Below, piece after piece: positions 1,794 to 23,562 of a stretch of 32,614 bases of DNA. Source of the stretch: Candidatus Woesearchaeota archaeon CG_4_10_14_0_2_um_filter_33_13. Lineage in GTDB: Archaea; Nanobdellota; Nanobdellia; Woesearchaeales; GW2011-AR9. A program made the position numbers and the translations under genes. The stretch lies in assembly GCA_002792115.1 (NCBI GenBank), contig PFNQ01000051.1:1-32614 (forward strand). The letters are read 5' to 3'. Below the pieces are notes generated by a model. The model saw nothing but the letters and a program-made list of their open reading frames with translations, had not been told where the DNA came from and searched no databases. Each line of letters starts with the position of its first letter. Within the stretch, counting starts at the first letter, position 1.

Positions 1794-2288
1794 ATGAAAT
1801 TAATAAAATCCATTTTTTTTGCTTTAATTATTTTAATAATTGTTGTTTTAATATTAATCACTTTAATTCCAGAAACAAAAACAATCTATCCTGCAAGTTC
1901 TTCCGGCTCCATTAAAACTAATTTTATCAGCGTAGCAGAGTTATTTAATAATTTAGATTATTACCAAAATAAAGAAATAATCGTCAAAGGATATGTATTA
2001 AATGTCTTAGATTATTGTAAGGCCTCTACCATGGAATGCTGGGGTAAACCAGTATTATCGACAGATGTAGAAACAAATTATACTCAGCAATTACAATTAA
2101 GAAACACTAACGGACAGTTGTTAGATGGATGTACTTCAACTAAAGAACCATGTCAGGGTTTTGTTAATGCTAAAATATATGAGATAAATGGCATCCTAAT
2201 AAAAACGGAACCTCAGATGATTAATGGTAAAAGTAATTTAAACATTTATGCTTTAAAAATAAATTCTTTCAAAGAGATTACTTCTTAG
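1794..2288 (+). CDS. Membrane-anchored small protein, possible OB-fold
   Basis: Residues 5-28 form one very hydrophobic segment after MKLIK, which fits a signal anchor with the rest outside the cell. The exterior part (about 30-164) begins FISVAELFNNLDYYQNKEIIVKGYV. That resembles the first strands of OB-fold domains that start with a 'keVtVkGyV' strand, but I cannot confirm the fold. Four cysteines at about 75, 82, 114 and 120 could form disulfides. A T/A-rich element near 1762-1770 is about 27 bases before the ATG, so the mRNA is probably leaderless. The 3' end overlaps the convergent 770-residue gene by 11 bases. Function unknown. Confidence 0.75.
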   Translation: MKLIKSIFFALIILIIVVLILITLIPETKTIYPASSSGSIKTNFISVAELFNNLDYYQNKEIIVKGYVLNVLDYCKASTMECWGKPVLSTDVETNYTQQLQLRNTNGQLLDGCTSTKEPCQGFVNAKIYEINGILIKTEPQMINGKSNLNIYALKINSFKEITS

Positions 2289-4590
2289 GGAAAAAATATA
2301 CAACTGCTCCTTTACCATTACAATCAACGTAAATTTCCTGTACTGACGCTTTAGTATTTCCATCTAATTTAATTTCTGAGCCATCTGGTGCAGTAATTGT
2401 ATCAGTTAAAGACAGTTTTTCTAAACCAATCTTTTTTACACCAACTTGATTAACACCTAAGTCTCGAGCACTAACTGTAAGTTGACTGGAACGGGAAAAA
2501 TCAGAATTATGTGACATCCGATTAAGATTACGTGAAGAGATAACTGCACTCAAATTATCAGTCTCAGCTAAGCGATCTAGCTCTACTTCTGCAGTTAAAC
2601 TAACTTGATCATAACCAGTTAATAAAATAACGGGTCTAGCATATTGTTCTATAGCTTGGTACATTTCTGGCGTTGTTGTATAATGTGAACAGAATAATCT
2701 TCCCTGAGCTCTGAACGGTTGACTAACATAAGGAGTCCTAGCTAGAACGTGCGCTCCCTTGGGAACAGATAAAGAAATACTGGGATCACATTTTCTATCA
2801 CTGGGATCTAATTGAACAAAATTTATCATTCCATCCTTAACAAAATATTCTAACTTTGCAGACCCTAATTTTTCATCAACAAATCTAGCAAATTTATCTA
2901 ACAATTCTAGAGTAGCTAAATCGTGCGGGCAGCGTGTTCCATTAACAATAGTAGTCCTTTCTTCCCAAGCTTGCTCAATAACTGCCTCTACTTTATGAAA
3001 TCCACTATATTGAACATCAGGCCCTTCTATCCAAACTAAATTTGGAGAATTACCTTCAAAGCTTTTAGTAACCATTTTAGGTTTACCAGCATTCATTTCA
3101 ACATAAACTCCACCAAAACCTTCAGCAATAGCCTTTCCATGACCAATAGTTGCTTCAATAATTGTATCTTTACTTGGATCGCCTTGTAATGAAGATAATA
3201 AAAATCCAGAGGTGTCTGGCATAGTGAAAGGCATTGCTAAATGATGAATAACTGTTCCTTTCGGCACAGTCTTCAAGACATCTCGACGGAATAAGAAATC
3301 TAGATAAAATACAATTAAGCGATCAACATTAGTGGGGTTTTGGATAAACCATCTTAAAGTATCAACGCTTGACAATTGACCGGAAGGACCACCATATTCA
3401 TAATTTGCTGAAGAGCGAAATACTAAAGAACGATCTTCAGGTACTACCTTACTTAATTTTTGTCTTAAAGAAAGATACTGTTCTAAGATTTGATTTCTAT
3501 AATTAACATCTGTTCTTAAAGCTTCATCAAAATGAAAATTTGCTCTAGGCATCATTGTCCTGAAGAATTGATTAAAGTCAGATTCTTGTACTAGAATGTC
3601 AATAACATCTGGAACTGTAACCATACTTGAATATTCTGGATGTTCAGCAGTAAATTCTTTGACTAAATGATTTAATAATTGTACGCCCATATATTTACCA
3701 CCATGTTCAGCAATGATGGTATGAGCATCAAAACCAAATAATTCTGTTTCAGCTGTTAATGTTGCTTGTTCTAGACTAGATTGATGTTGAGATATATTTG
3801 TTCTACTTATTGCTGCTTGTCTTCTTAAACGAGCGTTTTGTCCAGAATGTCGTTCTCCACGATCAAAGATAAGTATATTCATAGCAGAATGAAAACGGTC
3901 CAATATTAATGTTGATGTTCTGCTTAGTCTCCACAGATCTTCATTAAATCCTGCCAAAGCTAATTTATATGCTTCTAAATCAAACTTTTTTCCTTCTTGT
4001 AAAGCAGCAACTTCTGCATTTAATAACCATGCACCTCTTCCTCTAGCATAATAATTCTTGTATAAACGTTCTTTAACAAAGCCAGATTGTTGTAGTAAAG
4101 AAATAACTTCATCATTATCAGAATGAGCTAAGATTCTTTGATAATCAAAACAAGAAGTTAGCTGTTGAAAAGCAGCAGATAATGAATTAATAACAAGACT
4201 TCCTTCTTGCTCTGTCAGTAAACCGCGATTGTAAGCTACTGAACCTAAACGAAAAGTCCCTTCTTGCAATCTCTTTGGCAGATCCCCATCGTCTTCCATT
4301 CCCATAATGTAGCCTAACGATCTACCATCTTTTACAACCGTGATTGCTAATGAACTACCATCACTTAATTCATCAATAAAATCCCAAGCAGTATATCCAA
4401 TGTGTTTATCATAGAAGGAAGCATCAACATCAGCTAACATAGCTGCAAAAAGTTCTGGTGCATTAATGACTTGCATCTCAATATCACCTAATGAGGATAA
4501 TCTAGATTTTTGTTGATCCAAAATACTACTGACTATTGTTTCTAATTGTCTTATTTTAGCTGATTTAATTAGTTTAGGTTTTTTTGCCAT
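2278..4590 (-). CDS. GNAT-like / PEP-synthase-like ATP-grasp / phosphohistidine-like fusion
   Basis: Three modules are visible in 770 residues. Residues 40-190 are GNAT-like and end in YKNYYARGRGAWLL, matching the end of the GNAT protein two genes upstream. The acetyl-CoA loop (R/Q-x-x-G-x-G) is not recognisable, so this copy may be inactive. Residues 285-600 resemble the N-terminal ATP-grasp domain of PEP synthase, pyruvate phosphate dikinase and rifampin phosphotransferase: HGGK (296-299), RSSANYEYGGPSGQ (392-405), SGFLLSS (461-467), EATIGHGKAIAEGFGG (479-494) and EYFVKDGMINFVQLDP (581-596). Residues 605-720 look like the swivelling phosphohistidine domain, with MSH (His694) and SARDLGV (707-713), though the spacing is longer than usual. 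I see no PEP/pyruvate-binding barrel. By analogy it could phosphorylate an unknown acceptor. It is last of three minus-strand genes, 54 bases after the 1082-residue gene. Confidence 0.75.
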   Translation of the reverse strand: MAKKPKLIKSAKIRQLETIVSSILDQQKSRLSSLGDIEMQVINAPELFAAMLADVDASFYDKHIGYTAWDFIDELSDGSSLAITVVKDGRSLGYIMGMEDDGDLPKRLQEGTFRLGSVAYNRGLLTEQEGSLVINSLSAAFQQLTSCFDYQRILAHSDNDEVISLLQQSGFVKERLYKNYYARGRGAWLLNAEVAALQEGKKFDLEAYKLALAGFNEDLWRLSRTSTLILDRFHSAMNILIFDRGERHSGQNARLRRQAAISRTNISQHQSSLEQATLTAETELFGFDAHTIIAEHGGKYMGVQLLNHLVKEFTAEHPEYSSMVTVPDVIDILVQESDFNQFFRTMMPRANFHFDEALRTDVNYRNQILEQYLSLRQKLSKVVPEDRSLVFRSSANYEYGGPSGQLSSVDTLRWFIQNPTNVDRLIVFYLDFLFRRDVLKTVPKGTVIHHLAMPFTMPDTSGFLLSSLQGDPSKDTIIEATIGHGKAIAEGFGGVYVEMNAGKPKMVTKSFEGNSPNLVWIEGPDVQYSGFHKVEAVIEQAWEERTTIVNGTRCPHDLATLELLDKFARFVDEKLGSAKLEYFVKDGMINFVQLDPSDRKCDPSISLSVPKGAHVLARTPYVSQPFRAQGRLFCSHYTTTPEMYQAIEQYARPVILLTGYDQVSLTAEVELDRLAETDNLSAVISSRNLNRMSHNSDFSRSSQLTVSARDLGVNQVGVKKIGLEKLSLTDTITAPDGSEIKLDGNTKASVQEIYVDCNGKGAVVYFFPKK

Positions 4591-4644
4591 CCTTTTGTAA
4601 ACTTAACTATAATATTAACTATAGATTAACTGGATCATATTAAA

Positions 4645-7600
4645 CTATTGTGGTAAAGCATTAGCTATTTCTACAAACATATCAGTAGGGAGATAAAAAC
4701 CAGTAGTCTCTCCGGCTAATTCTTTTCTTTGATCGTGCCGCCACATTTCTAAGTAACGTGTTTCTTTAGGAATTCTTAGATGCCCATCTCCCCTTATCTT
4801 AGCTAAATCTACACTTACAGGAGATCCAAATCCTAAAACCTCACCCATAAACCCAGCAAACTTTCTAGATTTGCCGTTCATTCCATTTCTCCCGCTATTA
4901 ATAAAAACATACTCGGATTTAGTGTCTATAGCAGAACCAGCAATTCCCCTAGCTGCCGCACCTAACCATTTTAAATCTTCCATTCGGTCTAAATCTACAC
5001 CACCTTCAAAAGAGTCAACACCTAAGACCAGTTGATCATGACGGTTTTCACAATTGACTAAAATACTTGCACCAATCGGTTGATAAATAGAACTATTAAA
5101 ACCAGGACTATGATGAATAATTCCGATATGTGGATCGGCATGATAAAACAAAGAATGAACTTCCTCTGCCTCTTTATCTTCTGACATTAATGCACAACAA
5201 TGTAGTCTTCTTCCATCACCCAAATCATGAAGTGTCCAGTCTTGCATTTTAGTAGTTAGACAATTAAAGGGATCAGATTTTGCTTCTTTTAGCTCAACAA
5301 GTTGTTTAAACATTGATCTTAATTCAGTTCTACCAGGTAATGGTTTTGAAGAAACCAAATAATTCATCTCAATGGCTGAAAGAATACTATTAGCAGCAGC
5401 CATTCTTTCTTCTCGTGGACAATCTGGAATTTGTAAGATCTCTAAATTTTTACTAATCTGGGCATAAAATGCTCCTGGTGGAACATGACTGTGTAATAAT
5501 AATTGTCGCGCTGAAGATAACATTTGTGGATTAAATATCTGGCCTGCTTCTGCTAAACGATCTTCCCTTCTAGAAAGCAAACCATACGTTAAATACTTTG
5601 TTGCTTCTGTATAATCAACTAACGCCTTTAATGTTCCAATAGGAATTGTTTCGTACACCTTTCCAACAGGAAATAATGCTTTGTTATGTTTACCTTGTAC
5701 CTCTAGCTCTACAATTTGCTGCAACAAGTCTCTAGCATCCTCTCCTTTAGTACAGCAAATTAAGTCTAAAGCAAAATTTTCTGAATATCTTAATCCGGGG
5801 GCATTAGGTACAGATTGGAAGAACGTACTCACTGCACGTTGTGCTCCTTCGTACCAAGCAACGAAATCAGTATTGCTCGGTTCTTGTACGTTAAGATACT
5901 TCTTAGCTCTCTTGTCAAATTTAGAAAAAAACTCAATTTTTCTTTCTAAAGGCTCATCAGAATTAATGACTGTAGCAACTCTTGCTAAATGTTCACTGCT
6001 AGTTAATTCTGCAGCATCTAAGGCAGAATAAACTTGTAAAACTTTAAGCGGATCTAATTCTAGTTTCTTAAATAAGTTTAGTCTCTGTAAATAGCCCTTA
6101 ACTCTAATCTCTGCTAGATAAGGATTTTTCTGAATAGTTTTCTTAACTGCCCTTTTAGAGGTTAATCCTTTAACCATTTGCATTAGTTCTTTGTATCTAT
6201 CTAATTCTAACCCCATCAATTCTGCTGCTTTTCCTGGCCATGAATTATCAACTGTTGGGTCTGGCATACCCTCTAAATTAACTAATAGTGAATATTCTCT
6301 AAGTTTACGATCTTTTGTTCTTAAGGAAAGGTCTTCTGAAAGCAAGACTTCCGCAACGTGGTCAAATCTTCCTTCTAAGTCGTATTTCTCCACCAGCGGC
6401 AAATATTCTTTATATTGATCAATATCCATTCCAGCTGATAAAGCTAAAGCACTAGATCTGATTACCTCACCAAGACGATAATATCGATGAATCCTTCTTT
6501 TTTCTTCACCTCTTTCAACTTTCTCGTCTAATTCTCTCGCTTCATCAGCAACATAATCTAACCACGGCATTAAATTATCTTTACTTTCTTTAACTGCTAA
6601 GTGTAAAGATTCTAAAACTCTGGCAGTTAAATCATCATCAAACCTTCCTCTAATGATCTTATAAATATCAAAAGATTCTTCTCCTAAGACAGAATACATT
6701 TTAGTAAAGCGTCTAAAAAAGACTAATCCAGAAGGATGTTCATGACTTATTTGACTTGGCTCCGGGATTGGATCTTGAGAATGAGCTTCTACCGCAAATC
6801 TTAACACGTCCAAAAAACGGTCTTCAATTCCTGCTTCTTTAAATCGTCGATATTGCTTAAACAAATCGTCTTTACCACTATGATAATATAATAATATTGG
6901 ACAATGGTCAGCAATCGGTTCTAAAACAACATTAACATCCCTAAAAATAATGTCATTAATACGTTGTTTCTCTTCTTCTGGCAGATCTTTAAATTCTGGC
7001 CATTCTTTTTCATGGTCTTTGCCATATCCCCAGAATAAACCAGCGACAATAGAATATGGGATGGAACCATGATGGACAACTTTAGAAAGTAAAGGCATCA
7101 TTGCATCCACATACTCAACAGGAACTTCTCCTTTAGTTCTTTCCATTCCACTTAAGAAATCTTTAACTGCGCTACTAAGATGTAATGGTTCAATCGCCCC
7201 AGTATGATTAATTGCTGCTAAAAAAGCAGGAATATAACGAGCAAAACCTAAATCATGCATCTGTTTAAACTCTGGCAAGTGGGTCCATTCTTCTCCCCTT
7301 TTAGCGACAACATAATATCTTAAACAGCAATGCACATTATCAAAATTACCATCTTTAGCTCCCCAATAAAGCATCTGATCAACACCAGTAAATAAACCTC
7401 TTAAAATATCTCCCATCTGCCATTCAGTAGCTAAAGTAAGAGTCTCGGGAAGAGTTTCTAACATCAAACTTACACCAGAACCAATTCTTCTTTTAGAAAT
7501 TTGTAATTCTCTTTCATAATGCCCATCTGGAGAAGATTCTCTATCAGGAATTAACAATTCTTTAGTACCATCATAAAAATCCAGATAAGTATTAATAATC

Positions 7601-7893
7601 GCTAAACCAGCATTTAGGGTTTCTGTGTCAGGGGCAGTAGCAACAATCTCTGATAATTGTTCATTAGCTAAATCTTCTAAATCAAAATTTCCCGTTCTAA
7701 ATCTTTCAGAATAACTCCAAAATCTTTCACCACCATATAAACCTGCTTCATCTTTAACAGCCTGTTCTAAACTAGGAAGACGTTCTCTAATTCTCTGAAT
7801 GGCTGATTGCGTACTTTCAGGGAGCGTGCTTAAATCTAAATCAAAAGTAGGTTTAACCTCAATTCTTTTTCCGTCGGCTCCAAATATATGCAT
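4645..7893 (-). CDS. Giant uncharacterised protein, helical repeats plus C-terminal alpha/beta domain
   Basis: I do not recognise this 1082-residue protein. Residues 15 to about 860 read as nearly continuous amphipathic helices with many Leu, Glu, Arg and Lys, like an alpha-solenoid or HEAT/TPR-type scaffold, without an obvious repeat unit. The last ~210 residues differ: alternating strands and glycine turns (IGASILVNC, LVLGVDSFEGG, YVFINSGRNGMNGKSRKF) suggest an alpha/beta domain. That pattern is loosely like acetyltransferase-type folds, but I cannot show it. There is no signal peptide or membrane segment, so it is probably cytoplasmic. It sits between a GNAT gene (45 bases upstream) and the GNAT/ATP-grasp fusion (54 bases downstream) on the same strand, which suggests one transcript and a shared task. 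Confidence 0.8.
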   Translation of the reverse strand: MHIFGADGKRIEVKPTFDLDLSTLPESTQSAIQRIRERLPSLEQAVKDEAGLYGGERFWSYSERFRTGNFDLEDLANEQLSEIVATAPDTETLNAGLAIINTYLDFYDGTKELLIPDRESSPDGHYERELQISKRRIGSGVSLMLETLPETLTLATEWQMGDILRGLFTGVDQMLYWGAKDGNFDNVHCCLRYYVVAKRGEEWTHLPEFKQMHDLGFARYIPAFLAAINHTGAIEPLHLSSAVKDFLSGMERTKGEVPVEYVDAMMPLLSKVVHHGSIPYSIVAGLFWGYGKDHEKEWPEFKDLPEEEKQRINDIIFRDVNVVLEPIADHCPILLYYHSGKDDLFKQYRRFKEAGIEDRFLDVLRFAVEAHSQDPIPEPSQISHEHPSGLVFFRRFTKMYSVLGEESFDIYKIIRGRFDDDLTARVLESLHLAVKESKDNLMPWLDYVADEARELDEKVERGEEKRRIHRYYRLGEVIRSSALALSAGMDIDQYKEYLPLVEKYDLEGRFDHVAEVLLSEDLSLRTKDRKLREYSLLVNLEGMPDPTVDNSWPGKAAELMGLELDRYKELMQMVKGLTSKRAVKKTIQKNPYLAEIRVKGYLQRLNLFKKLELDPLKVLQVYSALDAAELTSSEHLARVATVINSDEPLERKIEFFSKFDKRAKKYLNVQEPSNTDFVAWYEGAQRAVSTFFQSVPNAPGLRYSENFALDLICCTKGEDARDLLQQIVELEVQGKHNKALFPVGKVYETIPIGTLKALVDYTEATKYLTYGLLSRREDRLAEAGQIFNPQMLSSARQLLLHSHVPPGAFYAQISKNLEILQIPDCPREERMAAANSILSAIEMNYLVSSKPLPGRTELRSMFKQLVELKEAKSDPFNCLTTKMQDWTLHDLGDGRRLHCCALMSEDKEAEEVHSLFYHADPHIGIIHHSPGFNSSIYQPIGASILVNCENRHDQLVLGVDSFEGGVDLDRMEDLKWLGAAARGIAGSAIDTKSEYVFINSGRNGMNGKSRKFAGFMGEVLGFGSPVSVDLAKIRGDGHLRIPKETRYLEMWRHDQRKELAGETTGFYLPTDMFVEIANALPQ

Positions 7894-7938
7894 CTTTAAC
7901 TTTAAACAACTAAAAACACCTCGACTAAAACTATTAAC

Positions 7939-8604
7939 TTACCTTATTCCTGGATCAATTACACTCCTAATAACTCGCGATTGGTCGCGAATATTCTTAC
8001 GCATTAACCAAGCATCGTTCTTTCCATTATCAACTACAGCTTCATCTTCGTCAGCATAATAACCTTTGATAAAGTGTTCTTTACGATATCCTAATTGTTC
8101 ATAACAAGTTGTTAATATTGGATCGTCAAATGCATGTAAAATAACATGATCATAACCTGCTTGTCTTACCGCTTCTTCAAACAAGCCCATCAAAGAAGGA
8201 AACAGACCAGTATTTCCGCCCCTTAAATCAGGAATAATGGCAGCAGAGTTAAGATAAAAAGTTTTGTGATCATTTTTATGAACCTCTTCTAGATCTCTAC
8301 TTCCTAAAACATAAGCAACAAGCTCTTCTCTATCACCTTTTCTGCTTGGTCTACGCTGGTATAAAGCAAAACCAATAGCAGTTTCATCAGCTAAAACATC
8401 AGTTATGTCTTCTGCATCATAAGCGATATCAGGAGTAAAACAAGCTTTATCAACAGCTAACATCCCATTAACGTGTTGACTACCTGGGTTAAGATACTCA
8501 ACCCGCGTTGGTGTTTTCTGTTCTTCCGTTAGAATTCTGCTAGCAGCATCAACTTTTCCTTTTATCAACTCATATAATATGTCTTTAAGCGTTTCCTTAG
8601 CCAT
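7939..8604 (-). CDS. GNAT-family N-acetyltransferase
   Basis: A 221-residue GNAT protein. These transfer an acetyl group from acetyl-CoA to an amine on a protein or small molecule. The central strand and acetyl-CoA loop are clear: LNSAAIIPDLRGGNTGLF (118-135), with the R-G-G-x-T-G pyrophosphate-binding turn at Arg128-Gly133. Near the C-terminus YEQLGYRKEHFIKGYYADEDEAV is the usual GNAT ending. About 45 N-terminal residues precede the domain. It is the first gene of the three-gene minus-strand cluster and has its own TATA box at the leaderless distance. Its domain is related in sequence to residues 40-190 of the 770-residue fusion. Substrate unknown. Confidence 0.85.
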   Translation of the reverse strand: MAKETLKDILYELIKGKVDAASRILTEEQKTPTRVEYLNPGSQHVNGMLAVDKACFTPDIAYDAEDITDVLADETAIGFALYQRRPSRKGDREELVAYVLGSRDLEEVHKNDHKTFYLNSAAIIPDLRGGNTGLFPSLMGLFEEAVRQAGYDHVILHAFDDPILTTCYEQLGYRKEHFIKGYYADEDEAVVDNGKNDAWLMRKNIRDQSRVIRSVIDPGIR

Positions 8605-8807: not shown

Positions 8808-9422
8808 ATGAGTTTGGTAACTACCATATTATCGTTCTTTTTGCAGTATACGCCACTTTTATCATTTTTAGGAGCTATTATAGGAGGAGAAGAAACTTTG
8901 ATCCTTCTTTCAATATTAGCCTCTCAAGGTCATTTACTTGTCTGGACGGTATTCATATTCTTTTATATGGGAATTATAACTTCTGATTTATTATGGTACT
9001 TTATTGGAAGAACAAAACTATTTGATTGGATGATAAAAAGAAAATATATTTCAAAAGTGTATCTCCGTTGGGATAAACTACTGAACAGGGCGACAAAAGG
9101 AAACAATTTTCAAGCATTACTGATTACAAAATTTCTGTATGGATTACGCTTACCTACCATTATGTATTTAGCAAGGGAAAGAATGCATTTTAAATCATTC
9201 TTGTTTTATACAATTATAGTCAATTTTATTTGGACATCAATTATTATGATGATTGGATGGTCTGCTGGAAAAGGAATTTCTTTAGCAACTGATTTATCAA
9301 ATAATCTAATTCTGTACCTGGTATTAATAGGCATCACAATGTTAGTCTTCACCTTGTTAATCAAATTCCTATCAAAAATAACAAAAAAATGGTTGATCAA
9401 AACGCAAAAGCAATTGAACTAA
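8808..9422 (+). CDS. DedA / SNARE-associated family membrane protein
   Basis: A 204-residue polytopic membrane protein of the DedA family. Members translocate lipids, and bacterial UptA and its relatives recycle undecaprenyl phosphate across the membrane. Diagnostic stretches are GGEETLIL (26-33), the D-x-x-W-Y-x-x-G-R segment (LLWYFIGR, about residues 61-68), and the amphipathic ITKFLYGLRLPTIMYLARERM followed by a long hydrophobic helix. About four hydrophobic segments are visible. The gene overlaps the downstream hydrolase/glycosyltransferase gene by 34 bases, so the two are almost certainly co-translated. In an archaeon the carrier would be a dolichyl-type polyprenyl phosphate, and a GT2 partner makes a role in glycan-lipid metabolism reasonable. 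Confidence 0.88.
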   Translation: MSLVTTILSFFLQYTPLLSFLGAIIGGEETLILLSILASQGHLLVWTVFIFFYMGIITSDLLWYFIGRTKLFDWMIKRKYISKVYLRWDKLLNRATKGNNFQALLITKFLYGLRLPTIMYLARERMHFKSFLFYTIIVNFIWTSIIMMIGWSAGKGISLATDLSNNLILYLVLIGITMLVFTLLIKFLSKITKKWLIKTQKQLN

Positions 9423-10789
9423 AGGCCGATTCAGATAATGAGTTTTTTCTGATACATGGTTATACAGGAAGCCCAACTGACTTTAATCAGTTACCATACC
9501 ATCTCCATAAAAAATTTAATGCTAATGTTAGAGTAATCATGCTAAAAGGACATGGCACTAAAGTAGAAGATTTAGATGATATAACTTTTAACGATTTATT
9601 AACTCAGATAGAAACAGCACTAAGAGAAGATATAAATAAAGGTAGAAAAATTATTTTGGGAGGACTTAGTTTAGGAGCTGTTTTTGCTTTACACTTATCT
9701 GCAGAATATCCAGTAAGAGCTGTTTTCAATATTTGCCCAACATATATCTTAAGATTTCCCTTTAATGTAAAGGGTATTGAACACTTAGGAAAGTACAAAA
9801 AATATTGGAAAAAACCTAGAAAAACCGATGAAAAATTAAAACGAGAAGGTACCTTTAGTTATGATTATATGCATGCAAACGGAATAAAGATAGTAAGAGA
9901 GGCAAGTAACAAATTAAAGGATAGAATAAATAAAATTAAATGCCCAATTATGACAATATGTTCAATAACTGATCCGATTGGACATCAGAAATCATTGAAA
10001 GAAATTCACAATAATGTAAAATCATCTATTAAAAGAAAAAAGATTTTTAGAAGTAGAATCCATAACATTTTCTTCTCTAAAACAGAAAATTTAGTATACA
10101 AAGAAGTAAGCGACTTTGTCAAGGAAAATAATTTATTTGATCTTGATAAACAAGAGAAGATTGCTGCCATTATTCCATCATATAATGAAGCAGAAAGGAT
10201 TGGAGAAGTGTTGAAAGTTCTTTGTGATATTGATATCTTAGATGAAATAATAGTAATTGATGACGGTTCTACAGACAACACTAAAGATGTAGTCAAAAAT
10301 TTTGAGAAAGTTAAGTATTATAAGAATAAAAATAATATTGGAAAAGCCGGTTCTATGGACTTAGGTGTAAAGTCAACTGATGCAGAAATTATATTCTTTT
10401 GTGATGCTGATTTAATTGATTTAAAACCAGAAATAGTAACTAAAATTATAGAACCAGTAAAGAACGGCAACTATAACATGTTTATCGGACTTAGAGGTAA
10501 TTTCATGCAAAAAACTGTCCATCTATTTGCAATAAACTCTGGTGAGAGAGCTCTTAGGAGAATTGTTTGGGAAGAACTTCCTAAACAGTTTAAATATAGG
10601 TATAGAGTAGAAGCAGGATTAAATTATTGTGTAAAAAAGTATTTTGGTGGTTTTGGGTATAAAGAATTTGATTATTCTCAACCGCTTAAAGAAAAGAAAT
10701 ATGGATTTATTAAAGGTACTATACTTAGATGGAGCATGAATATTGATGTTTTGATTGCATATATACAAGAAATATTCGGAAAAGCATAA
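9389..10789 (+). CDS. Alpha/beta-hydrolase fused to GT2 glycosyltransferase
   Basis: A two-domain fusion of 466 residues. Residues 15-245 are an alpha/beta hydrolase of the carboxylesterase/monoacylglycerol-lipase type: oxyanion motif HGYTGSP (23-29), nucleophile elbow GGLSLG with Ser94, and likely Asp195 (SITDPIG) and His225 (RIHN) completing the triad. Residues 256-466 are a family-2 glycosyltransferase: IIPSYNEAERI (261-271), IVIDDGSTDNT (288-298) and a metal-binding DAD (339-341), as in dolichyl-phosphate sugar synthases. No transmembrane tail follows. It overlaps the DedA gene by 34 bases, which suggests joint work on a polyprenyl-linked sugar or glycolipid: the GT2 half adds a sugar and the hydrolase half cuts an ester. 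The substrate is not readable from the sequence. Confidence 0.88.
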   Translation: MVDQNAKAIELKADSDNEFFLIHGYTGSPTDFNQLPYHLHKKFNANVRVIMLKGHGTKVEDLDDITFNDLLTQIETALREDINKGRKIILGGLSLGAVFALHLSAEYPVRAVFNICPTYILRFPFNVKGIEHLGKYKKYWKKPRKTDEKLKREGTFSYDYMHANGIKIVREASNKLKDRINKIKCPIMTICSITDPIGHQKSLKEIHNNVKSSIKRKKIFRSRIHNIFFSKTENLVYKEVSDFVKENNLFDLDKQEKIAAIIPSYNEAERIGEVLKVLCDIDILDEIIVIDDGSTDNTKDVVKNFEKVKYYKNKNNIGKAGSMDLGVKSTDAEIIFFCDADLIDLKPEIVTKIIEPVKNGNYNMFIGLRGNFMQKTVHLFAINSGERALRRIVWEELPKQFKYRYRVEAGLNYCVKKYFGGFGYKEFDYSQPLKEKKYGFIKGTILRWSMNIDVLIAYIQEIFGKA

Positions 10790-11077: not shown

Positions 11078-14000
11078 TTATAATTCTTCCTTTTTTAAAC
11101 CTTTCTTTTTACCTTTCTTTTTGTTAACAAAATAAATTATTGAGATAACACAGAGAAATAAAAATAAGATTGGAATTGACCAGCTTAATACTTTAAACAA
11201 TTTATCTTTAAACGTAACCTGCTTACCACCATTCATCTCAACATTAAACTCATTTTCAGTAACTAAAATACCACCTTTATAGATCTTAGTTTGGATTTGA
11301 TACTCATCATTATAGATTAAAGGATTGTACTTGTATTGTTGAGCAAAGACTAAAGCTTGCTGAGTTTTTACATGATAAGGTCCATATAAATCACTAAAGT
11401 AATTTTTCTTGCCATCCTTGCTGTTGATGTTCATCTCCACAGTGTATCTATTAAGATCCGGAGATAAGTCAACAGTCGCCCCACCAGTGATACTATTACC
11501 ATTTCCATTATTATTATCATTACTATTGCCATTACTATCTTCAGTTTCTTTAAAAATTTCTTCTGGAGCAAGAACAACATAAATGTCCATCAGATCATTT
11601 TCAACATCTAAATCTATTGCAGAGCCAGAAACAGCTGTTCTCTCAACAAAAACTTCTTTTTCATAAACAGCTTCACCAAAAGTAGTAAACTGAATTTTAA
11701 TCTGTCTGGGGATTGTTAAACCCTCATTAATCTCAATATCTCTAACCACTTTCTCCCCAGGAGGAATAATTATCTCTTCAGGATCAACTAAGGTAGCTTG
11801 CAATAATCTACCTGTAATGGAATTACTGGAATAAGATAAAGATGCCAAGTTATAAAATGCTGAATCTTCTCCGCCCATTGTTTTAGTGTTAACGATAAAG
11901 AAAGGATCATCAACTTGCTGAAGAATATTAGGAAATAACTTTATCGCTTTTTTACCGGTATTTTCTAAAGTAAATGTGACAACAGTTTTTCCAATATCTT
12001 GTTGTGATTCTGCTTCCGACTTTAAATACTTTTTAACATCTTCTGCTGAATAAACATCTGTTGTTACAACTGTTGATTTAGAAGTTTTAGTAGGAGCCTT
12101 AACTTCTGGAGTGGTTACCGCTGCAGCTACTGCTGTAGAACCACTACTGCCACTCCCACTTCCGCTACCAAGTTGTACTTCCGTAACACAAGTAGTTATC
12201 TTTGGCCCATAATCTACGCCATAACCTCCGCTATATGGATATATCTTTGAAGATGTAGTACTATTGTATGGATAATCATTTGAGGTGTTTGTTGTCGGAC
12301 CATCCGCATAAGTATCATTGTTACTATCTGTCCCTTTATTACAATAATCGTCCCATTCATTGCCTTGAGCAGTAAAATTACCAGAAACATTAACAGAAGT
12401 ATTGAAGTAATTACCATCAGAAGTCCTAAGATGATAAGAAGAAGAACCACTAATCTTATTGTGATAAAATAAATTGTCTGTTCCAGACAAAAGATAAATT
12501 CCGTTACTAAATCCCGTTAAATTATTGTTATGAAAAGTATTATTGTTAGATAATGTTTGAATAGCAAAAGCTCCCGAACCGGTACTAAGGGAATTATAAG
12601 ATATGTCTGAATTAGCACAATAATAAAGATAGACCCCATAAAAATTGTTATCATCAAAAACACTATTAGTGATGTTCCAATTATTCCCAACATTACAATT
12701 CACTCCATAATCATTACCTGTAAAGTTACTTCCACTAATAGTGACATTATCAACGTGATCAAAATAAATCCCCGGCCAATAGTTATTAATAAAACTAGAA
12801 TTGATAAAATTATGACCATATGAATTAATGATATAAGCACCATAATAGAAATTATCAAATTTACAACCGATAACTGTAATATTGTCATAATTAGTTCCGA
12901 TATAACGGTTATATAATCCCATACCCTCTTGATAACCACGAATAATAGTGTTATCACAAGTAATAACTAAATCATCTGCACCAGCAACTAAAACTCCTCC
13001 AGAGTCACTATCATTAATAGTATAAGTTCCAGGACATAGATTAGTATTAGAGGTGAGAACTAAATTATCACTAGGTACAGTACAATTAAGTACAAAAGAG
13101 AGATTTAAGTAAGTATTGTTAGTTTCTGATAGATTAATCACGGAGTTATTTATCACTGTTTCAGAGGCTGTTGAGTATGTAGCTGTAATGTTCTGCCTAT
13201 TAAGATAAGTGATTCCCGATAGATTAATCTTAAGCTCACTAACTTCTAAAACGGCAAGCCCATCAACATCTGTTTGTTGGGTATCATCAACAGTGTTACC
13301 AGCATCAATTAAATAAGCAGTAACATTAACATTCTGTAAGGGCGTAGTTTCGTTATTAGTGACGTTAACTGTAACGTACCATTTTTTGTAAATGCTAGCA
13401 GTACCGCTGATGTTAATTAGGCTAATGTTAATAGAAGAATTTACAATAGAATTATTTGTTCCTCCATCATTAATGGCTAAGAGATCAAATTGATTGTTTA
13501 TAAAAGTGCTATCAAAGATTTTATTATTGTTAGAAGTATTTAAGATAAGTCCATAAGTGCTATTTGACAAGTTTAAAGAATAAAAATTAGAATAATTGGT
13601 ATTATAAACATCTAAAGCGTTACTAAAATTTATGATGTTTAAGTTTGAAACATTAATCCCTGCTCTGTTGTTAAAGCTAAGTGCAGTTCCAGAGCCATTT
13701 CCAATGATGCTATAATCCCCACCATCAATAACGATGTTATCACCAGTAATAGTTAAACAAGTTCCGTTACTGTAAAGATTCTCACCAAGCGTAAAGTCTG
13801 AATTTAAACTCATTCCGCAAAATACTTCAAGTAAGGACAAGTTTATTTGTGCTCCGGTTGTATTAATCAGATTAAGATAACTTTGGTTTTGAGTGTAACC
13901 ACTTTTGATAGCAGTAATCAGATGATTATTAGTGAGGTAGTAAGTGATATTGTTCTCCATATAATATTCAGTAAGTTCTAAAGTTCCAATTCCGTTAGCA

Positions 14001-17000
14001 CTAGTTTGTGTTGTGTCGTCAAGTATGTTAGTAGCGTCATAACCATTCAAAGTAACATTTTCAATAGAACCATCACTACTATTAGTTACATTAACATCAA
14101 CATACCATTTAACATAAAGATAATTATTAGCTTCAGAACTTAATTTAGATTTATTAAAAGTAACGTTAATGAAATAGTTCTCTGCACTGCCATCATAAAA
14201 GCGAACTGAATTTCCAATCATATCGTTAACAAAGGTATTATTGTCAGAATTATAATAGATATCTAATTTATTGCTCAGATTATTATTAGAAAAGCGGTTA
14301 TTCGCCGAATCCATTAAATGTATATCAATTGTTTCTCCAGCACCATAATAACCATCATTGTAGAGGGTATTTCCACTAATGTTCATATTGTCGTTGTATA
14401 AAATTCGTAGTCCAAGATAAGTGTAGTTAATGATATTGTTAGTAATCTTGTTATTATAACTAAGCTGATTATAATTGACACCCTCTAAGTTAATACCATT
14501 AAAGAAATCTATGATAGTAAGATTATTAATAGTGATGTTACTAACATTTGTTCCAGTTATTCCAGTGTTAGAATTTGTATTACCTAACAAGGTAGCACCA
14601 TTACCTTCTATTACAATATTACTAGCATTAAGAGTAAAACAATCCTCACCGACACCAGCAGTAATTATCTGGCCAGGAGGTATAGTTACGTTAGAATTAA
14701 TTACTCCGCAACTGATAATAGGAATATCAATTAAAGGCAAGTAGTCTTTACTATTACCTCCACTAATATTATATTCTACGTCACCAAATCCGTCAAAATT
14801 TGCGTCTGAATAAATGTAATCTTCCCAAAAATTTCCCCCAGTACAATTCTCACCTAAAATATTAGTAGCTCCACACATCTCTGAAATATTCCAATTATTA
14901 GAACTATCATCAAAAGCGTTGTTAGTGTTGTTAGAAAAATAATTGTTATAAATAGAATTGTTGTTGGAATTTATAATCTTAGTTCCGTTAGCAGAATTGT
15001 TCTGGATATAATTATTAGTTATATAGTTGCTATCAGCTCCTTGATAAAGATATAATCCGTCAGTACCATTGTTAATATAAATACCAGTAAGATTATTTAG
15101 AGTAGCATTCTCCATGTACCCCCCAACAGAAAAATTTGTTATAATCAGGTTTTTGATAGTAACATTAGTCTGATTAGTTATATTGATCCCGATGCCTGTA
15201 CCATCTCCAGTTATAATGGCATCATTTCCGTCTATTACAATGTTACTTTCATTAACAATAAAACAATCTCCTGCAGAGGTTAAATCGGTAATTAAAGTTG
15301 TACCCTCATTAATGTAACCGCAAACAGGAATTGAGATATTTCCGGTTAATGTAACAGATATGCTTTCTGTCTCGGAAAGGTTGATATTAGTAAAATTAAC
15401 TAAAATACCACCTACCGAAGCGTTGATGGTGTGATTAGTAACATAATTGGCAGAAACAATATCTTGAACAAACTCAGTAAGGTTTAGTAAAACTTCTCCT
15501 TGTGAATTTGTTATTGCACTTGATTCTAATCCACCGGTGTTATTGTATGCAGAAACATTTACTCCCTGCAGATTCTCTCCTAAAGTATTATTAACTTTAG
15601 TTCTAACAAACCATTTAACATAAGCGCTACCTCCACTAGCAGAAGTAACATTGATCTTACTTTTGTTAAATGTAAGATTAATTAATTGTGTGTTATGACC
15701 GCCTTGGTAATCAAAAAAGGTGCTATTTTGAATGATTTCATTTACAAAAGTGTTGTTATAATTAAAACCGGGAAGATCAATAGAATAATTATTATCATTA
15801 TAATGATTATCGATAAAATAATTGTTATCAGAATTTCCCCCGACATACATTCCTTTATCTGTATTATTTATTAATGACCCTTGAAACTGGTTCATGCCAG
15901 TACTGGTTAAATAAAAACCATATTGGGCATCGTGAATAGAATTATTTACAAATATATTTTGAGATGAGCTACTCGAATAAATTCCTTGCTCCGTCTTTTC
16001 AACTTCATTATTAGTTAAGTTGTTATAATAACTGGAAGTAGTTACAATAATGCCGACAGTCGCTGTTGTATTTTCACCATTGATATAATTGTTTTCTAAG
16101 CGGTTATACAAAGAATAGGCAAGATAAATTGCTACATTTGAATCCATAAAATCATAAACGGAATTTCCAGAGATGAGACCAGAATCTGAACCACCAATAT
16201 ATATAGCCACGCTATTATTGTAAAAGGTATTGTTAGAGATAATAGTACGATCTACAGAATCAACTGCCACTCCAATAGAGCTTGTGTCATAAATACTATT
16301 AGAAATTATTTCAATATCGGTGGAATAAACATAAACACCTCCGGAACTGATAGAATATATTGAGTTATTGTACAACAAGTTATTTGGTCCTTGAAAGTAT
16401 ACCCCATAACTGCGAGTATTAGAAATATTGTTATTGCTTAAATTATTATAACTAGAAGTAGCTTCTATTCCTAAACCATAAAAGCTAATGTTTGATATAA
16501 TGTTGTTATCAATAGTGTTATAATCCGAAAACCATAAACTTATAGCAGAACCAGTAATGCTAGATAAATTATTGTAGCTAATATTAGAATCATCTGTGTT
16601 AAGAGTATAAACTCCAGCACTAGTTGTATTAGAGTTTCCTACGTCATAAATATCATTATTTATGACAGTTACGTTACTTGCTCCCAGACGAATTCCATAA
16701 ATACTAGTCGCCGCAGATCGGTTAATGTTTCTTATAATATTGTTAGCAATAGTAAGGTTATTATTAGAACCAGTAACCATAATTCCGGTAATCTCAGTAC
16801 CGGTTAAATTTTCAATAATATTGTTAGAAACAATCCCATTTAAATTAATATCAATGCCGTCACTACAATTATAAATATAATTATTCTCTATTGTAAAATT
16901 ATATCCGTTAGCAAAAATACCTTGGCCCTCAATGGCAGTTTCACCAAAGTTAATGATTGTACAATTACGGAGGGTAATATTATTATAAGGTTGGATCCAC

Positions 17001-17494
17001 ACACCAGAATAAGAACCTGTTGACGTACCACTAATAGTATGGCCATCACAATCAAGTATCACATCGGGACTACCAATTATTAATCCGTAATCTGCACACC
17101 CAGTTAAATCAGAAGCCATCGTATAAGACTCATTTAACGTATCACCGCAACTACAAGATGTTGCTCCGCCACAATTAGATTGAATAGATATCTGTTCAGA
17201 AGTACTTAAATCGTCCTGGAAAATAATTGCTCTGTCTTGAAAAGTTACATCATTAAGTAAATCATCAGATGGAGTAGGTAAGAATTTTTCTTCAACAATT
17301 GATTTAGGAGGGATTATTGATTCTGGAACAGCTAAAGGTTCTGCTTCCACTACTTCTTCATCTGTACTTAATCCGATAACATTCCCAGTAATTTGATTAT
17401 CTCCGATTGAATTCAAAACAAAGAATGAAGCTATAATTAAGAATAGAACAACAACTACCACACCTACAAATTCCCCCCTTTTACCCGAGTACAT
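11078..17494 (-). CDS. Giant parallel beta-helix cell-surface protein
   Basis: A 2138-residue secreted, membrane-anchored protein. Residues 1-30 hold a hydrophobic signal/anchor, followed by ITGNVIG, a motif common on surface proteins of this kind of archaeon. From about residue 108 there are long runs of right-handed beta-helix turns (pattern NNxIxNNxI, NosD/PbH1 type). About five blocks each open with a cysteine and a line like DNIVIDGxGxxIxG. Between blocks lie short domains starting YVKWYVDVNVTN or YKKWYVTVNVTN, probably Ig-like sandwiches. Asn-x-Ser/Thr sequons are extremely dense, implying heavy N-glycosylation. After a Gly/Ser linker comes a C-terminal beta domain, one transmembrane helix (about 2095-2120) and a Lys-rich cytoplasmic tail. 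It is probably a stalk, adhesin or glycan-binding surface fibre. Confidence 0.9.
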   Translation of the reverse strand: MYSGKRGEFVGVVVVVLFLIIASFFVLNSIGDNQITGNVIGLSTDEEVVEAEPLAVPESIIPPKSIVEEKFLPTPSDDLLNDVTFQDRAIIFQDDLSTSEQISIQSNCGGATSCSCGDTLNESYTMASDLTGCADYGLIIGSPDVILDCDGHTISGTSTGSYSGVWIQPYNNITLRNCTIINFGETAIEGQGIFANGYNFTIENNYIYNCSDGIDINLNGIVSNNIIENLTGTEITGIMVTGSNNNLTIANNIIRNINRSAATSIYGIRLGASNVTVINNDIYDVGNSNTTSAGVYTLNTDDSNISYNNLSSITGSAISLWFSDYNTIDNNIISNISFYGLGIEATSSYNNLSNNNISNTRSYGVYFQGPNNLLYNNSIYSISSGGVYVYSTDIEIISNSIYDTSSIGVAVDSVDRTIISNNTFYNNSVAIYIGGSDSGLISGNSVYDFMDSNVAIYLAYSLYNRLENNYINGENTTATVGIIVTTSSYYNNLTNNEVEKTEQGIYSSSSSQNIFVNNSIHDAQYGFYLTSTGMNQFQGSLINNTDKGMYVGGNSDNNYFIDNHYNDNNYSIDLPGFNYNNTFVNEIIQNSTFFDYQGGHNTQLINLTFNKSKINVTSASGGSAYVKWFVRTKVNNTLGENLQGVNVSAYNNTGGLESSAITNSQGEVLLNLTEFVQDIVSANYVTNHTINASVGGILVNFTNINLSETESISVTLTGNISIPVCGYINEGTTLITDLTSAGDCFIVNESNIVIDGNDAIITGDGTGIGINITNQTNVTIKNLIITNFSVGGYMENATLNNLTGIYINNGTDGLYLYQGADSNYITNNYIQNNSANGTKIINSNNNSIYNNYFSNNTNNAFDDSSNNWNISEMCGATNILGENCTGGNFWEDYIYSDANFDGFGDVEYNISGGNSKDYLPLIDIPIISCGVINSNVTIPPGQIITAGVGEDCFTLNASNIVIEGNGATLLGNTNSNTGITGTNVSNITINNLTIIDFFNGINLEGVNYNQLSYNNKITNNIINYTYLGLRILYNDNMNISGNTLYNDGYYGAGETIDIHLMDSANNRFSNNNLSNKLDIYYNSDNNTFVNDMIGNSVRFYDGSAENYFINVTFNKSKLSSEANNYLYVKWYVDVNVTNSSDGSIENVTLNGYDATNILDDTTQTSANGIGTLELTEYYMENNITYYLTNNHLITAIKSGYTQNQSYLNLINTTGAQINLSLLEVFCGMSLNSDFTLGENLYSNGTCLTITGDNIVIDGGDYSIIGNGSGTALSFNNRAGINVSNLNIINFSNALDVYNTNYSNFYSLNLSNSTYGLILNTSNNNKIFDSTFINNQFDLLAINDGGTNNSIVNSSINISLINISGTASIYKKWYVTVNVTNNETTPLQNVNVTAYLIDAGNTVDDTQQTDVDGLAVLEVSELKINLSGITYLNRQNITATYSTASETVINNSVINLSETNNTYLNLSFVLNCTVPSDNLVLTSNTNLCPGTYTINDSDSGGVLVAGADDLVITCDNTIIRGYQEGMGLYNRYIGTNYDNITVIGCKFDNFYYGAYIINSYGHNFINSSFINNYWPGIYFDHVDNVTISGSNFTGNDYGVNCNVGNNWNITNSVFDDNNFYGVYLYYCANSDISYNSLSTGSGAFAIQTLSNNNTFHNNNLTGFSNGIYLLSGTDNLFYHNKISGSSSYHLRTSDGNYFNTSVNVSGNFTAQGNEWDDYCNKGTDSNNDTYADGPTTNTSNDYPYNSTTSSKIYPYSGGYGVDYGPKITTCVTEVQLGSGSGSGSSGSTAVAAAVTTPEVKAPTKTSKSTVVTTDVYSAEDVKKYLKSEAESQQDIGKTVVTFTLENTGKKAIKLFPNILQQVDDPFFIVNTKTMGGEDSAFYNLASLSYSSNSITGRLLQATLVDPEEIIIPPGEKVVRDIEINEGLTIPRQIKIQFTTFGEAVYEKEVFVERTAVSGSAIDLDVENDLMDIYVVLAPEEIFKETEDSNGNSNDNNNGNGNSITGGATVDLSPDLNRYTVEMNINSKDGKKNYFSDLYGPYHVKTQQALVFAQQYKYNPLIYNDEYQIQTKIYKGGILVTENEFNVEMNGGKQVTFKDKLFKVLSWSIPILFLFLCVISIIYFVNKKKGKKKGLKKEEL

Positions 17495-17528: not shown

Positions 17529-17574
17529 TTTTGTTTTTAATATGATTTAGAAGATTTAACAAAAATGAAAAAAG

Positions 17575-17658
17575 CGCCGACGCCCGGATTTGAACCGGGA
17601 AATCCTTGCGGAAACAAGATTTCCAGTCTTGCGGAGTACCAGATTGTCCCACGTCGGC
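17575..17658 (-). tRNA. trnS-GGA: tRNA-Ser (anticodon GGA)
   Basis: A complete type II tRNA of 84 nt with no intron. The acceptor stem is GCCGACG/CGTCGGC with discriminator G. The anticodon stem-loop is CAAGA-CTGGAAA-TCTTG with anticodon GGA, reading UCC and UCU serine codons. The variable arm TCC-GCAA-GGA is long, as in serine tRNAs. The T arm is CCCGG-TTCAAAT-CCGGG. No CCA is encoded. A T-run (reverse strand of 17569-17573) follows closely as terminator, and an AT-rich TATA-like element lies near 17684-17693. Confidence 0.95.
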
Positions 17659-17764
17659 AATATTAAGATAAAAAAAGGCCCCCATTTAAATAAGTTTCTT
17701 TAACACTCCCCACTGGACAAATACGGACAAAAGTTATAAACCAATTAGTTGTTAATTATTCAGA

Positions 17765-18379
17765 ATGAAGATTACTAAAGATTTAGCTTTAGTTTATGGA
17801 GTTTTATTGGGGGACGGATGTTTATCAAAAATCAGAAATCATAGTTTTATTTCCATAACTTGTAATATTCATTCAGACAAGGCCTTTCTTGAGAAAATAA
17901 AACCTTTTTTAGAAAAACTAAGACAAAAACCTATCAAACTTTATGAAAGAAAGAAATACGGCAAAATTGAAATTAACTTTTCTGATAAAAAGCTGTTTAA
18001 TCAATTTTTAAAATCAAGTTTCCCAGTAGGCAAAAAAGGACCAAACTTAATAGTTCCAGACAGAATGTTACCATTTTTAAAAGAGATTATTAATGGGTAT
18101 TTTGCTACAGATGGTAGTTTGGTAATTACCAATAATAATGGCATTAAATATCCCCGATTAGAATTTTCTAGTATATCAAAATCATTGCTTCAGCAAGTTC
18201 AAAAATTCTTAAAAACACTTGAAATAACCGGAAATATCTACATTTCTAAAAGATACTCAAATAACTGGAACACCCTATATCGTTTACAAATAAATGGAAA
18301 AACCAATTTAAAGTTATTTAAAAACAATATCGGATTTATCAATCCAAAACATGAAATAATTTGTAATAAAATTCTTTGA
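17765..18379 (+). CDS. LAGLIDADG homing endonuclease, free-standing
   Basis: A 204-residue single-chain endonuclease with two LAGLIDADG helices: LALVYGVLLGDG (7-18, catalytic Asp17) and LKEIINGYFATDGS (105-118, catalytic Asp116). Such enzymes cut a long target site and spread the intron or intein that carries them. Some (maturases) help splicing. This copy is not inside an intron: it stands between tRNA-Ser and the two-intron tRNA-Met, ending 14 bases from the latter on the opposite strand. A TATA-like AAGTTATAAAC lies about 28 bases before the ATG. Both catalytic aspartates are present, so it may be active. The link with the tRNA-Met introns is suggestive only. Confidence 0.88.
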   Translation: MKITKDLALVYGVLLGDGCLSKIRNHSFISITCNIHSDKAFLEKIKPFLEKLRQKPIKLYERKKYGKIEINFSDKKLFNQFLKSSFPVGKKGPNLIVPDRMLPFLKEIINGYFATDGSLVITNNNGIKYPRLEFSSISKSLLQQVQKFLKTLEITGNIYISKRYSNNWNTLYRLQINGKTNLKLFKNNIGFINPKHEIICNKIL

Positions 18380-18393
18380 TTTAATCAAAAAAA
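18375..18393 (-). terminator. T7 run and palindrome after tRNA-Met
   Basis: Reading the minus strand, seven T residues (18393-18387) follow the tRNA discriminator directly and run into the palindrome TTTGATTTAATCAAA (18375-18389), which also covers the stop codon of the convergent endonuclease gene. It probably ends transcription of the tRNA. Confidence 0.55.
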
Positions 18394-18429
18394 TGGCGAA
18401 GGGGGGATTTGAACCCCCAACCCCCACGT

Positions 18430-18483
18430 AACCCAGTTATATGTTGAGTTTTAGTCATCGTCCGAAGACTCATCGCTCAACCA
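18430..18483 (-). other. Intron 2 of tRNA-Met, canonical position 37/38 (54 nt)
   Basis: Its removal joins A37 to A38. The central 4-bp helix pairs exon bases CTCA (18489-18486) with intron bases TGGG (18435-18432). On the 3' side the bulge is TT|A, and G31-C39 closes the exon stem, as expected for the archaeal splicing endonuclease. The intron body folds through GTTGAG/CTCAAC. The helix just beyond the 5' bulge is less regular than ideal. Confidence 0.8.
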
Positions 18484-18490
18484 TATGAGC

Positions 18491-18518
18491 TTCACCCAAA
18501 CGGTTTTAAACCATTAAT
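18491..18518 (-). other. Intron 1 of tRNA-Met, non-canonical position 30/31 (28 nt)
   Basis: The central helix pairs exon CACC (18524-18521) with intron GGTG (18496-18493), four perfect pairs. The bulges are AC|A at the 5' site and AA|G at the 3' site, both of three bases. The intron body is a 5-bp hairpin, AATGG-TTTAAAA-CCGTT. It lies inside the anticodon stem, so splicing is needed to form the G31-C39 pair. Confidence 0.83.
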
Positions 18519-18588
18519 GTGGTGCTATAACCAGGCTAAGCCACTTCGCCAATTTAACAGAAAATAAACAGTTGTTATTTAAAGATTT

Positions 18589-19092: not shown

Positions 19093-19764
19093 ATGGCAAA
19101 AGAACATTTAGATCCGATTCATAACTTTGCAAGGCCAGGATTGGCTGTCGACGTAGTTTTGTTTACGATCAAAGATCATGATCTTAAGGTTGGTCTAATA
19201 AAAAGGGAAGATGACCCTTATTTAGGGAAGCTTGCTCTTCCTGGAAGATTTGTTAGATATGATGAGCCCATTGAAACAACAGCCAAAGAAGCATTAAAAT
19301 TAAAAGGTGGAGTGAAACCTGAAAGTGTATTCTTAGAACAATTGTATACGTTTGGTCAAGAATTAAAAAGAGATACTAGAATTAGAACAGTAACTATCGT
19401 CTATTACGGATTAGTAGAATCAAATAAAATAGATTTTCAAAAAAGTAATTTGTTACATTGGAACTCAGCCTATGATCTCCCACCACTTGCCTTTGACCAT
19501 AAAAAAATCATTGAATATGCAATTCACAGACTTAGAAAGAAAGTTCAAGAAAGCGATTTCGCCTTTCAATTGATGCCGGAAGAATTTACTTTAAGCGAGT
19601 TGCAAAAAGCTTACGAAATAATTTTGAATGAAGAACAAGATAAACGGAATTTCAGAAAAAAAATAATTGAATTACATATTCTTAAGGATTTAAAGAAAAA
19701 GAAAATGGAAGGTGCTCATCGCCCAGCAGCAGTTTATTCTTTTATACGCAATAAAGCTAAATAA
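19093..19764 (+). CDS. nrtR: NrtR-type Nudix-related transcriptional regulator of NAD metabolism
   Basis: A 223-residue regulator in which a catalytically degenerate Nudix domain is joined to a winged helix. Residues 15-140 are the Nudix fold: LALPGRFVRYDEPIETTAKE (48-66) keeps the strand and turn, but the REUxEE metal-binding core is missing (KEALKLKGG), as expected for a domain that binds ADP-ribose or another NAD derivative instead of hydrolysing it. Residues 155-223 carry the family hallmarks LMPEEFTLSELQKAYEII, DKRNFRKKI and HRPAAVYSF. In bacteria NrtR represses NAD biosynthesis and salvage genes. Here it precedes a complete NAD(P) gene set on the same strand, 194 bases away, so the assignment is supported by both sequence and context. 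Confidence 0.92.
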   Translation: MAKEHLDPIHNFARPGLAVDVVLFTIKDHDLKVGLIKREDDPYLGKLALPGRFVRYDEPIETTAKEALKLKGGVKPESVFLEQLYTFGQELKRDTRIRTVTIVYYGLVESNKIDFQKSNLLHWNSAYDLPPLAFDHKKIIEYAIHRLRKKVQESDFAFQLMPEEFTLSELQKAYEIILNEEQDKRNFRKKIIELHILKDLKKKKMEGAHRPAAVYSFIRNKAK

Positions 19765-19823
19765 TCCGTCTTCAAGCTAAAATTAAACATAAATATACTA
19801 AAAAAGTATACTATTGTGGAGAC

Positions 19824-19933
19824 TTAGTGTGTATTCTACCAAAAGGTTTATATATAAGTGTGCATATTACACTATCAAGGTGATTCAAACAAATGCGCGA
19901 ATCGCCTTTTTTAATAAAAGAGTTAGTGTATAA
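19824..19933 (+). promoter_or_regulatory. Promoter and candidate operators of the NAD operon
   Basis: A TATA box, TTTATATATAA (19847-19857), predicts a transcript start near 19878. A dyad with AGTGT (19857-19861) and ACACT (19869-19873) overlaps the TATA box and start region, the right place for a repressor. Related copies are TTAGTGTGTA (19824-19833) and TTAGTGTATAA (19923-19933). The natural candidate binder is the NrtR-type protein encoded just upstream. I have not compared these with published archaeal NrtR sites. Confidence 0.5.
19877..19912 (+). terminator. Hairpin followed by T6 in the NAD operon leader
   Basis: AAGGTGATTC (19877-19886) pairs with GAATCGCCTT (19899-19908), a 10-bp stem with one G-T pair and a 12-base loop. 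A T-run (19907-19912) starts in the stem end. It resembles an intrinsic terminator or attenuator placed at the very start of the predicted NAD transcript. The alternatives are termination of nrtR read-through or a 5' stabilising hairpin. Confidence 0.5.
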
Positions 19934-22594: not shown

Positions 22595-22595
22595 A

Positions 22596-23558: not shown

Positions 23559-23562
23559 ACAA

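Follow-up and report, generated by a model that had tools for sequence, protein, structure and literature searches.

A rare three-gene unit in an archaeal genome

What do three closely spaced archaeal genes do together when two of them encode GNAT acetyltransferase domains and the one between them encodes a giant protein of no recognized family? The question is raised by positions 2278–8604 of a 32,614-nucleotide stretch of contig PFNQ01000051.1 (hereafter the window), from a Candidatus Woesearchaeota archaeon, which is part of a 1.33-Mb archaeal metagenome-assembled genome (G000, contig C40). Gene A encodes a 221-amino-acid (aa) GNAT resembling N-terminal acetyltransferases (NATs), gene B a protein of 1082 aa, and gene C a 770-aa fusion of a GNAT, a pyruvate phosphate dikinase (PPDK)-type ATP-grasp domain and a phosphohistidine domain. 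The trio is probably a real, uncharacterised protein- or metabolite-modifying system, because the same three genes recur in the same order in a distant relative. Our preferred reading, to which we assign a probability of roughly 0.4, is that they form one accessory transcription unit building a multi-protein modifying enzyme.

Genes A (7939–8604), B (4645–7893) and C (2278–4590) all lie on the minus strand, separated by gaps of 45 bases (A–B) and 54 bases (B–C). A TATA-box-like element, TTTATAAATA, stands 5′ of gene A on the same strand (8635–8626), 22–31 bases upstream of its ATG, a spacing in line with an archaeal transcript that has a short leader or none. The open reading frames (ORFs) and this element confirm the layout that the original prediction had described from the letters of the window: three co-directional genes with these gaps and a single TATA box. 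At its 3′ end gene C overlaps a convergent gene (1794–2288) by 11 bases, and no structured RNA was found in the trio locus. The GC content of the three genes (0.35–0.37) falls inside the range of their neighbours, so horizontal transfer, as judged by base composition, was rejected.

The distant relative is G217, a genome of the same order and another family, in which the genes run GNAT, B, short ORF, B, C, corresponding to the A–B–C order with B duplicated. BLAST identities to the window proteins are 22% for A, 24–31% for B and 28% for C; taken with the shared gene order, these values point to a long-standing linkage. The first B copy is interrupted by an in-frame TGA (L010:9631–9633) in the conserved C-terminal domain, and the short ORF is its severed remainder; the conserved sequence continues in frame, and the TGA is either a nonsense mutation or an assembly error.

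Gene A is a GNAT and gene C a GNAT fused to a predicted ATP-dependent phosphotransferase

The window copy of gene A, an ORF recognized by a GNAT profile over aa 33–205 (8508–7990), has no significant match in Pfam (PF00583 included) or NCBIfam. Its G217 orthologue matches PF00583 (Acetyltransf_1) with an E-value of 9e-16, and a homologous GNAT fused to a B protein in genome G146 does so at 5e-7; by homology to these two proteins, gene A is a member of the GNAT superfamily. The pyrophosphate-binding loop that contacts coenzyme A (CoA; R/QxxGxG/A) reads RGGNTG in the window protein (aa 128–133) and is canonical, RGQGFG, in the G217 orthologue, and this near-canonical loop suggests catalysis. Gene C carries a second GNAT domain at aa 36–194 (4009–4485), with a degenerate CoA loop, YNRGLLTEQEG. 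The claim that two of the genes share related GNAT domains was borne out (blastp 26% identity over 162 aa, E 1e-9). The weak matches of both domains in the PDB are NAT enzymes, namely Naa20 (E 0.01 for gene A) and the group of the archaeal NAT SSO0209 (E 0.006 to 0.04).

The remainder of gene C comprises a PPDK_N-like ATP-grasp domain (aa ~290–600; 2791–3723) directly adjoined by a phosphohistidine swivel-like domain (aa ~610–770; 2281–2763). The window copy has no significant Pfam or NCBIfam match, and the assignment comes from profiles and from alignment of aa ~290–770 with four relatives, in which Lys299 (GGK motif), Arg392 (RSS motif), Glu581, Gln593 and His694 (2511–2509) are kept. His694 is invariant among the five C-like proteins, and the C-like protein of genome G284 has the classical phosphohistidine motif GAKTCHSA at this position; as a conserved residue, it corresponds to the phosphorylatable histidine of the PPDK/phosphoenolpyruvate (PEP) synthase swivel domain. 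A C-family profile matched PDB entries labelled ‘phosphoenolpyruvate synthase’ (5hv6, E 5e-6; with 5fbs, 5hv1 and 5hv2, E 5e-6 to 6e-5), the matches being restricted to the ATP domain. PF01326 (PPDK_N) was found in the G217 orthologue at an E-value of 2e-4, below the curated cut-off, and was undetected in the window protein; on alignment and profile evidence gene C nonetheless has an ATP-grasp of the PPDK_N type. The original prediction of PEP-synthase/rifampin-phosphotransferase-like modules joined to a GNAT in the third gene thus stands. One feature departs from the family: the QxRP motif reads QLDP, with Asp595 at the site of the PPDK-family arginine. Aspartate is also present in the G217 and G284 proteins, while arginine is retained in G075 and G327, whose C relatives are shorter.

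Entries 5hv1–5hv6 and 5fbs–5fbu we take to be structures of the Listeria rifampin phosphotransferase, RPH, which, like gene C, combines a PPDK_N-type ATP-grasp with a C-terminal phosphohistidine swivel domain and conserves the lysine, arginine and histidine. Gene C differs in adding an N-terminal GNAT, in the aspartate of its QxRP motif and in having no rifampin-binding domain. PEP synthase and PPDK share the ATP-grasp and phosphohistidine domains, but their PEP/pyruvate-binding barrel was not found in gene C (no PEP-utilizers_C match in a Pfam scan). VadK (Rv1127c) is a histidine kinase derived from PPDK; it phosphorylates itself, regulates metabolism and has an ATP-grasp and a His domain but, like gene C, no such barrel (PMC13400623). 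Unlike the trio it has neither GNAT nor giant partner, and PPDK_N is barely detectable in gene C. With RPH, VadK and the HpeHI kinase (PMC12167813), gene C joins a growing set of PPDK-derived kinases, as a new architecture.

These relatives suggest two other functions for the trio. The closest solved relatives of the gene C ATP domain are the RPH entries, and both GNATs and RPH-like enzymes are known to modify drugs (RPH: PMC4844700), so gene C might phosphorylate a natural product or antibiotic that gene A acetylates, in the manner of an aminoglycoside acetyltransferase, and that gene B binds. A patchy distribution would suit such an inactivating or tailoring module, but gene C has no counterpart of the rifampin-binding domain and the PDB relatives of the trio's GNATs are N-terminal protein acetyltransferases rather than aminoglycoside enzymes. 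Furthermore, we know of no drug-modifying enzyme that uses a scaffold of more than 1000 aa, and we consider this explanation fairly unlikely. Alternatively, gene C could be a VadK-like histidine kinase acting on metabolic enzymes, with non-catalytic GNAT parts that sense acetyl-CoA. Leaving aside the GNAT, gene C has the domain composition of VadK (PMC13400623), and low-molecular-weight (LMW) phosphatase genes lie nearby in two genomes with gene B relatives (G116 and G509). The CoA loops of gene A and its G217 orthologue, which suggest catalysis, speak against a purely sensory role, and a regulatory phospho-signalling function seems to us distinctly improbable.

Gene B ends in a probable GNAT-like domain of an unnamed family

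Searches with gene B returned nothing from Pfam, NCBIfam, PHROG, PADLOC or the PDB sequences, in keeping with the earlier statement that the 1082-residue protein could not be assigned. Residues 1–880 (5254–7893) are probably a helical scaffold: a model of aa 600–900 is all-helical at low confidence (predicted local distance difference test, pLDDT, 42), and clear repeats are present in relatives (L014, L072). No sequence repeat was detectable in the window protein itself, so the ‘solenoid-like’ label given to it from the sequence is only partly borne out by the predicted helices and is unproven.

The domain reading of the original prediction was right as far as it went, but it overlooked a probable third GNAT-like domain, at the end of gene B. 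This conserved B core (aa 885–1080; 4654–5241) has conserved cysteine (Cys899-Cys900) and Asp-Ser-x-Glu residues, the latter starting at Asp960 and lying in the region of the GNAT CoA loop. Its elements run four strands, helix, strand, helix, strand, and the motif VDSxEG...N..P..F aligns with the region of GNAT strand 4, helix 3 and strand 5; together, element order and alignment suggest a GNAT. In hhalign, a 22-member B-core profile scored 31.5 with a GNAT profile and 29.0 with GNATs from elsewhere in the genomes, compared with 11.3 for the reversed profile, a maximum of 19.0 over 200 block shuffles, and 15.8 and 17.4 for unrelated families. AlphaFold models of gene B parts were built on two-sequence alignments; with the B-core model (pLDDT 36), GNAT enzymes made up about 40 of the 50 highest-ranking Foldseek matches, none of which was individually significant. 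DSxEG stands in place of the CoA-binding loop. Judging from these profile and model comparisons, the domain is probably GNAT-like, short of proof. Matches of the B profile to 3-dehydroquinate dehydratase (E 0.07 or worse) were rejected as chance.

Gene B relatives are more widespread than the trio. A single-sequence search of 371 genomes of the phylum gave matches in six, including the window genome, while a profile of the last ~200 residues found the domain in 22 of the 371, and in 16 of 353 genomes of the order. Within a single genus of the f68 family, the B core is a multi-copy family of 480–860-aa proteins with helical repeats, and cores of this type align with the window type at 97.8% probability. 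Loci L023–L044 and L066–L072 (family f68, genus g163) show up to four copies per genome, combining helical repeats with the GNAT-like core and the motif FLVDSVEGHRTFRKP; the g163 proteins are mostly not adjacent to GNAT genes. The domain is an unnamed family that recurs across the class and is multi-copy in one genus, and a single experiment could annotate many proteins in the Nanoarchaeota, a large group that is for the most part uncultured and about whose regulatory chemistry almost nothing is known.

A wider search of genome contigs yielded only the G146 contig, and no relatives of gene B were found among viral contigs and phages. The latter result bears on the suggestion, made with the original prediction, of a defence-like role. 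In such a system, gene B would sense infection and the GNAT and phosphotransferase parts would modify host or viral translation factors. The genes are rare, patchy, large, multidomain and accessory, B is tandemly duplicated in G217 (one copy with a premature stop) and G146 has two B paralogues, all of which would be in character for a conflict system. The PADLOC, PHROG and phage searches gave no match, however, no defence genes were recognized in the window or in the G217 neighbourhoods, and the base composition of the trio is not unusual. The suggestion thus found no direct support, and we think an antiviral function unlikely.

Gene B is linked to GNAT genes beyond the trio

Conservation of the three genes in other archaea had been proposed as the test of a joint system, and the outcome was divided. 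The identical order in the distant G217 and a looser association of B with GNATs support it, but the strict trio is confined to two of the 371 genomes (G000 and G217) and gene C is missing from other B carriers. Trio-type C was found only in these two genomes; its GNAT-less relative in G284 is on a 3.8-kb contig that does not carry gene B, and other genomes of the G217 family and genus have no trio-type C. Since the trio is rare, and missing from G217's own genus and from other B carriers, the unit appears to be accessory and is patchily distributed.

The looser association takes several forms. In G146, a B protein begins with a fused GNAT 35% identical to gene A, while in G173 a GNAT is fused C-terminally to the B core; G185, G116, G255 and G509 have a GNAT gene near the core. 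Overall, a GNAT lay within 2.5 kb of B or was fused to it in eight of 16 testable genomes, against 0.74 expected (Poisson-binomial P 2e-7, calculated post hoc and without correction for ancestry). PEP-utilising genes were near B in five of the 16, against 0.5 expected (P 9e-5), or four (P 1e-3) without G173, again post hoc; G173 has a canonical PEP synthase convergent with B, an adjacency that may be chance. G116 has a run of two LMW-phosphatase genes, the B core, a GNAT and an enzyme-I-like PEP-utilising protein (PEP-utilizers_C, E 1e-57), and in G509 the B core and GNAT are followed by a PPDK_N-His protein and an LMW-phosphatase, all within 10 kb.

These data also bear on the possibility that A, B and C are mere neighbours with unrelated roles, held together by the recent transfer of a single island. 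That only two complete copies are known, and that C is missing from other B carriers, would fit. On the other hand, preservation of order at 22–31% identity implies old linkage, A-type GNATs are fused to B elsewhere and GNATs are enriched near B in many lineages, leaving this explanation very improbable.

The run in G116 spans L062:4704–11785, with a weakly DUF3419-like gene upstream. A second B paralogue of G146 lies at another contig end; the two ends are not halves of one gene, as their 121-aa overlap is similar but non-identical, indicating two paralogues. Downstream of this second paralogue is a long co-directional run of close genes (L011:2587–16176), of which the first five have no significant match in Pfam.

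A proposed scaffolded acetyltransferase coupled to phosphotransfer

The best supported mechanism for the trio, held as tentatively as the transcription unit itself, is a scaffolded acetyltransferase coupled to ATP-to-histidine phosphotransfer, a reading that draws on the domains, motif residues and linkage observed. We infer that the products would form a complex in which gene B is a large scaffold holding gene A, by analogy with NatA, where the Naa15 solenoid holds Naa10. The parallel lies in a large helical partner beside a NAT-like GNAT; gene B differs in having no Pfam or PDB sequence match to a Naa15-type tetratricopeptide repeat subunit and in itself ending GNAT-like, and NatA has no phosphotransferase. 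The loop-less GNAT-like modules of B and C would be non-catalytic and serve in docking or substrate recognition. The ATP-grasp of gene C would phosphorylate His694, which would then swing and pass its phosphate to an acceptor. Because gene C contains neither a PEP barrel nor another obvious domain for a substrate, we propose that this putative acceptor is held by the GNAT-type modules in the complex. The complex might modify a single target, most likely a protein, by acetylation, phosphorylation or both, and phosphotransfer could activate or reverse the acetylation function.

Several observations weigh against this mechanism. The complete trio is known from just two genomes, and other B carriers, G146 among them, lack C. 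The ATP chemistry of gene C may be altered or lost, because the arginine of the QxRP motif is an aspartate. The models of gene B are poor (pLDDT 36–42), have no individually significant Foldseek match and are too weak as sole support. The lineages behind the co-localization statistics are not fully independent, and the roles proposed for the three proteins are predictions from sequence.

Coupling of acetylation and phosphotransfer within one complex would be unusual, if true. Every part of the trio is a member of a known superfamily or resembles one, but the gene C architecture, the gene B family and their combination were in no library searched, and a literature search found no description of any of them. 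We consider a stronger claim doubtful: that the trio represents a type of archaeal modifying machine not described before, made of several proteins, in which a giant protein built on three GNAT-fold modules, two of them without catalytic activity, would provide the mechanical link between acetyl transfer and the passage of phosphate from ATP to histidine. On this reading the gene B domain would found a new family widespread in Nanoarchaeota.

Other features of the window

Upstream of the trio, an alpha/beta-hydrolase fused to a family-2 glycosyltransferase (9389–10789) adjoins a gene for a VTT-domain membrane protein. Positions 11078–17494 encode a NosD-like protein of 2138 aa with a right-handed beta-helix, probably located at the surface. 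At 17574–18550, a LAGLIDADG endonuclease gene (17765–18379, plus strand) is flanked by a tRNA-Ser and a 157-base tRNA match (18394–18550, minus strand) that ARAGORN missed, an arrangement that suggests an intron-containing tRNA with an intron-homing endonuclease. Finally, genes for an NrtR-type regulator, a nicotinate phosphoribosyltransferase, a NUDIX protein and a radical-SAM protein cluster at 19093–25504, probably for NAD salvage.

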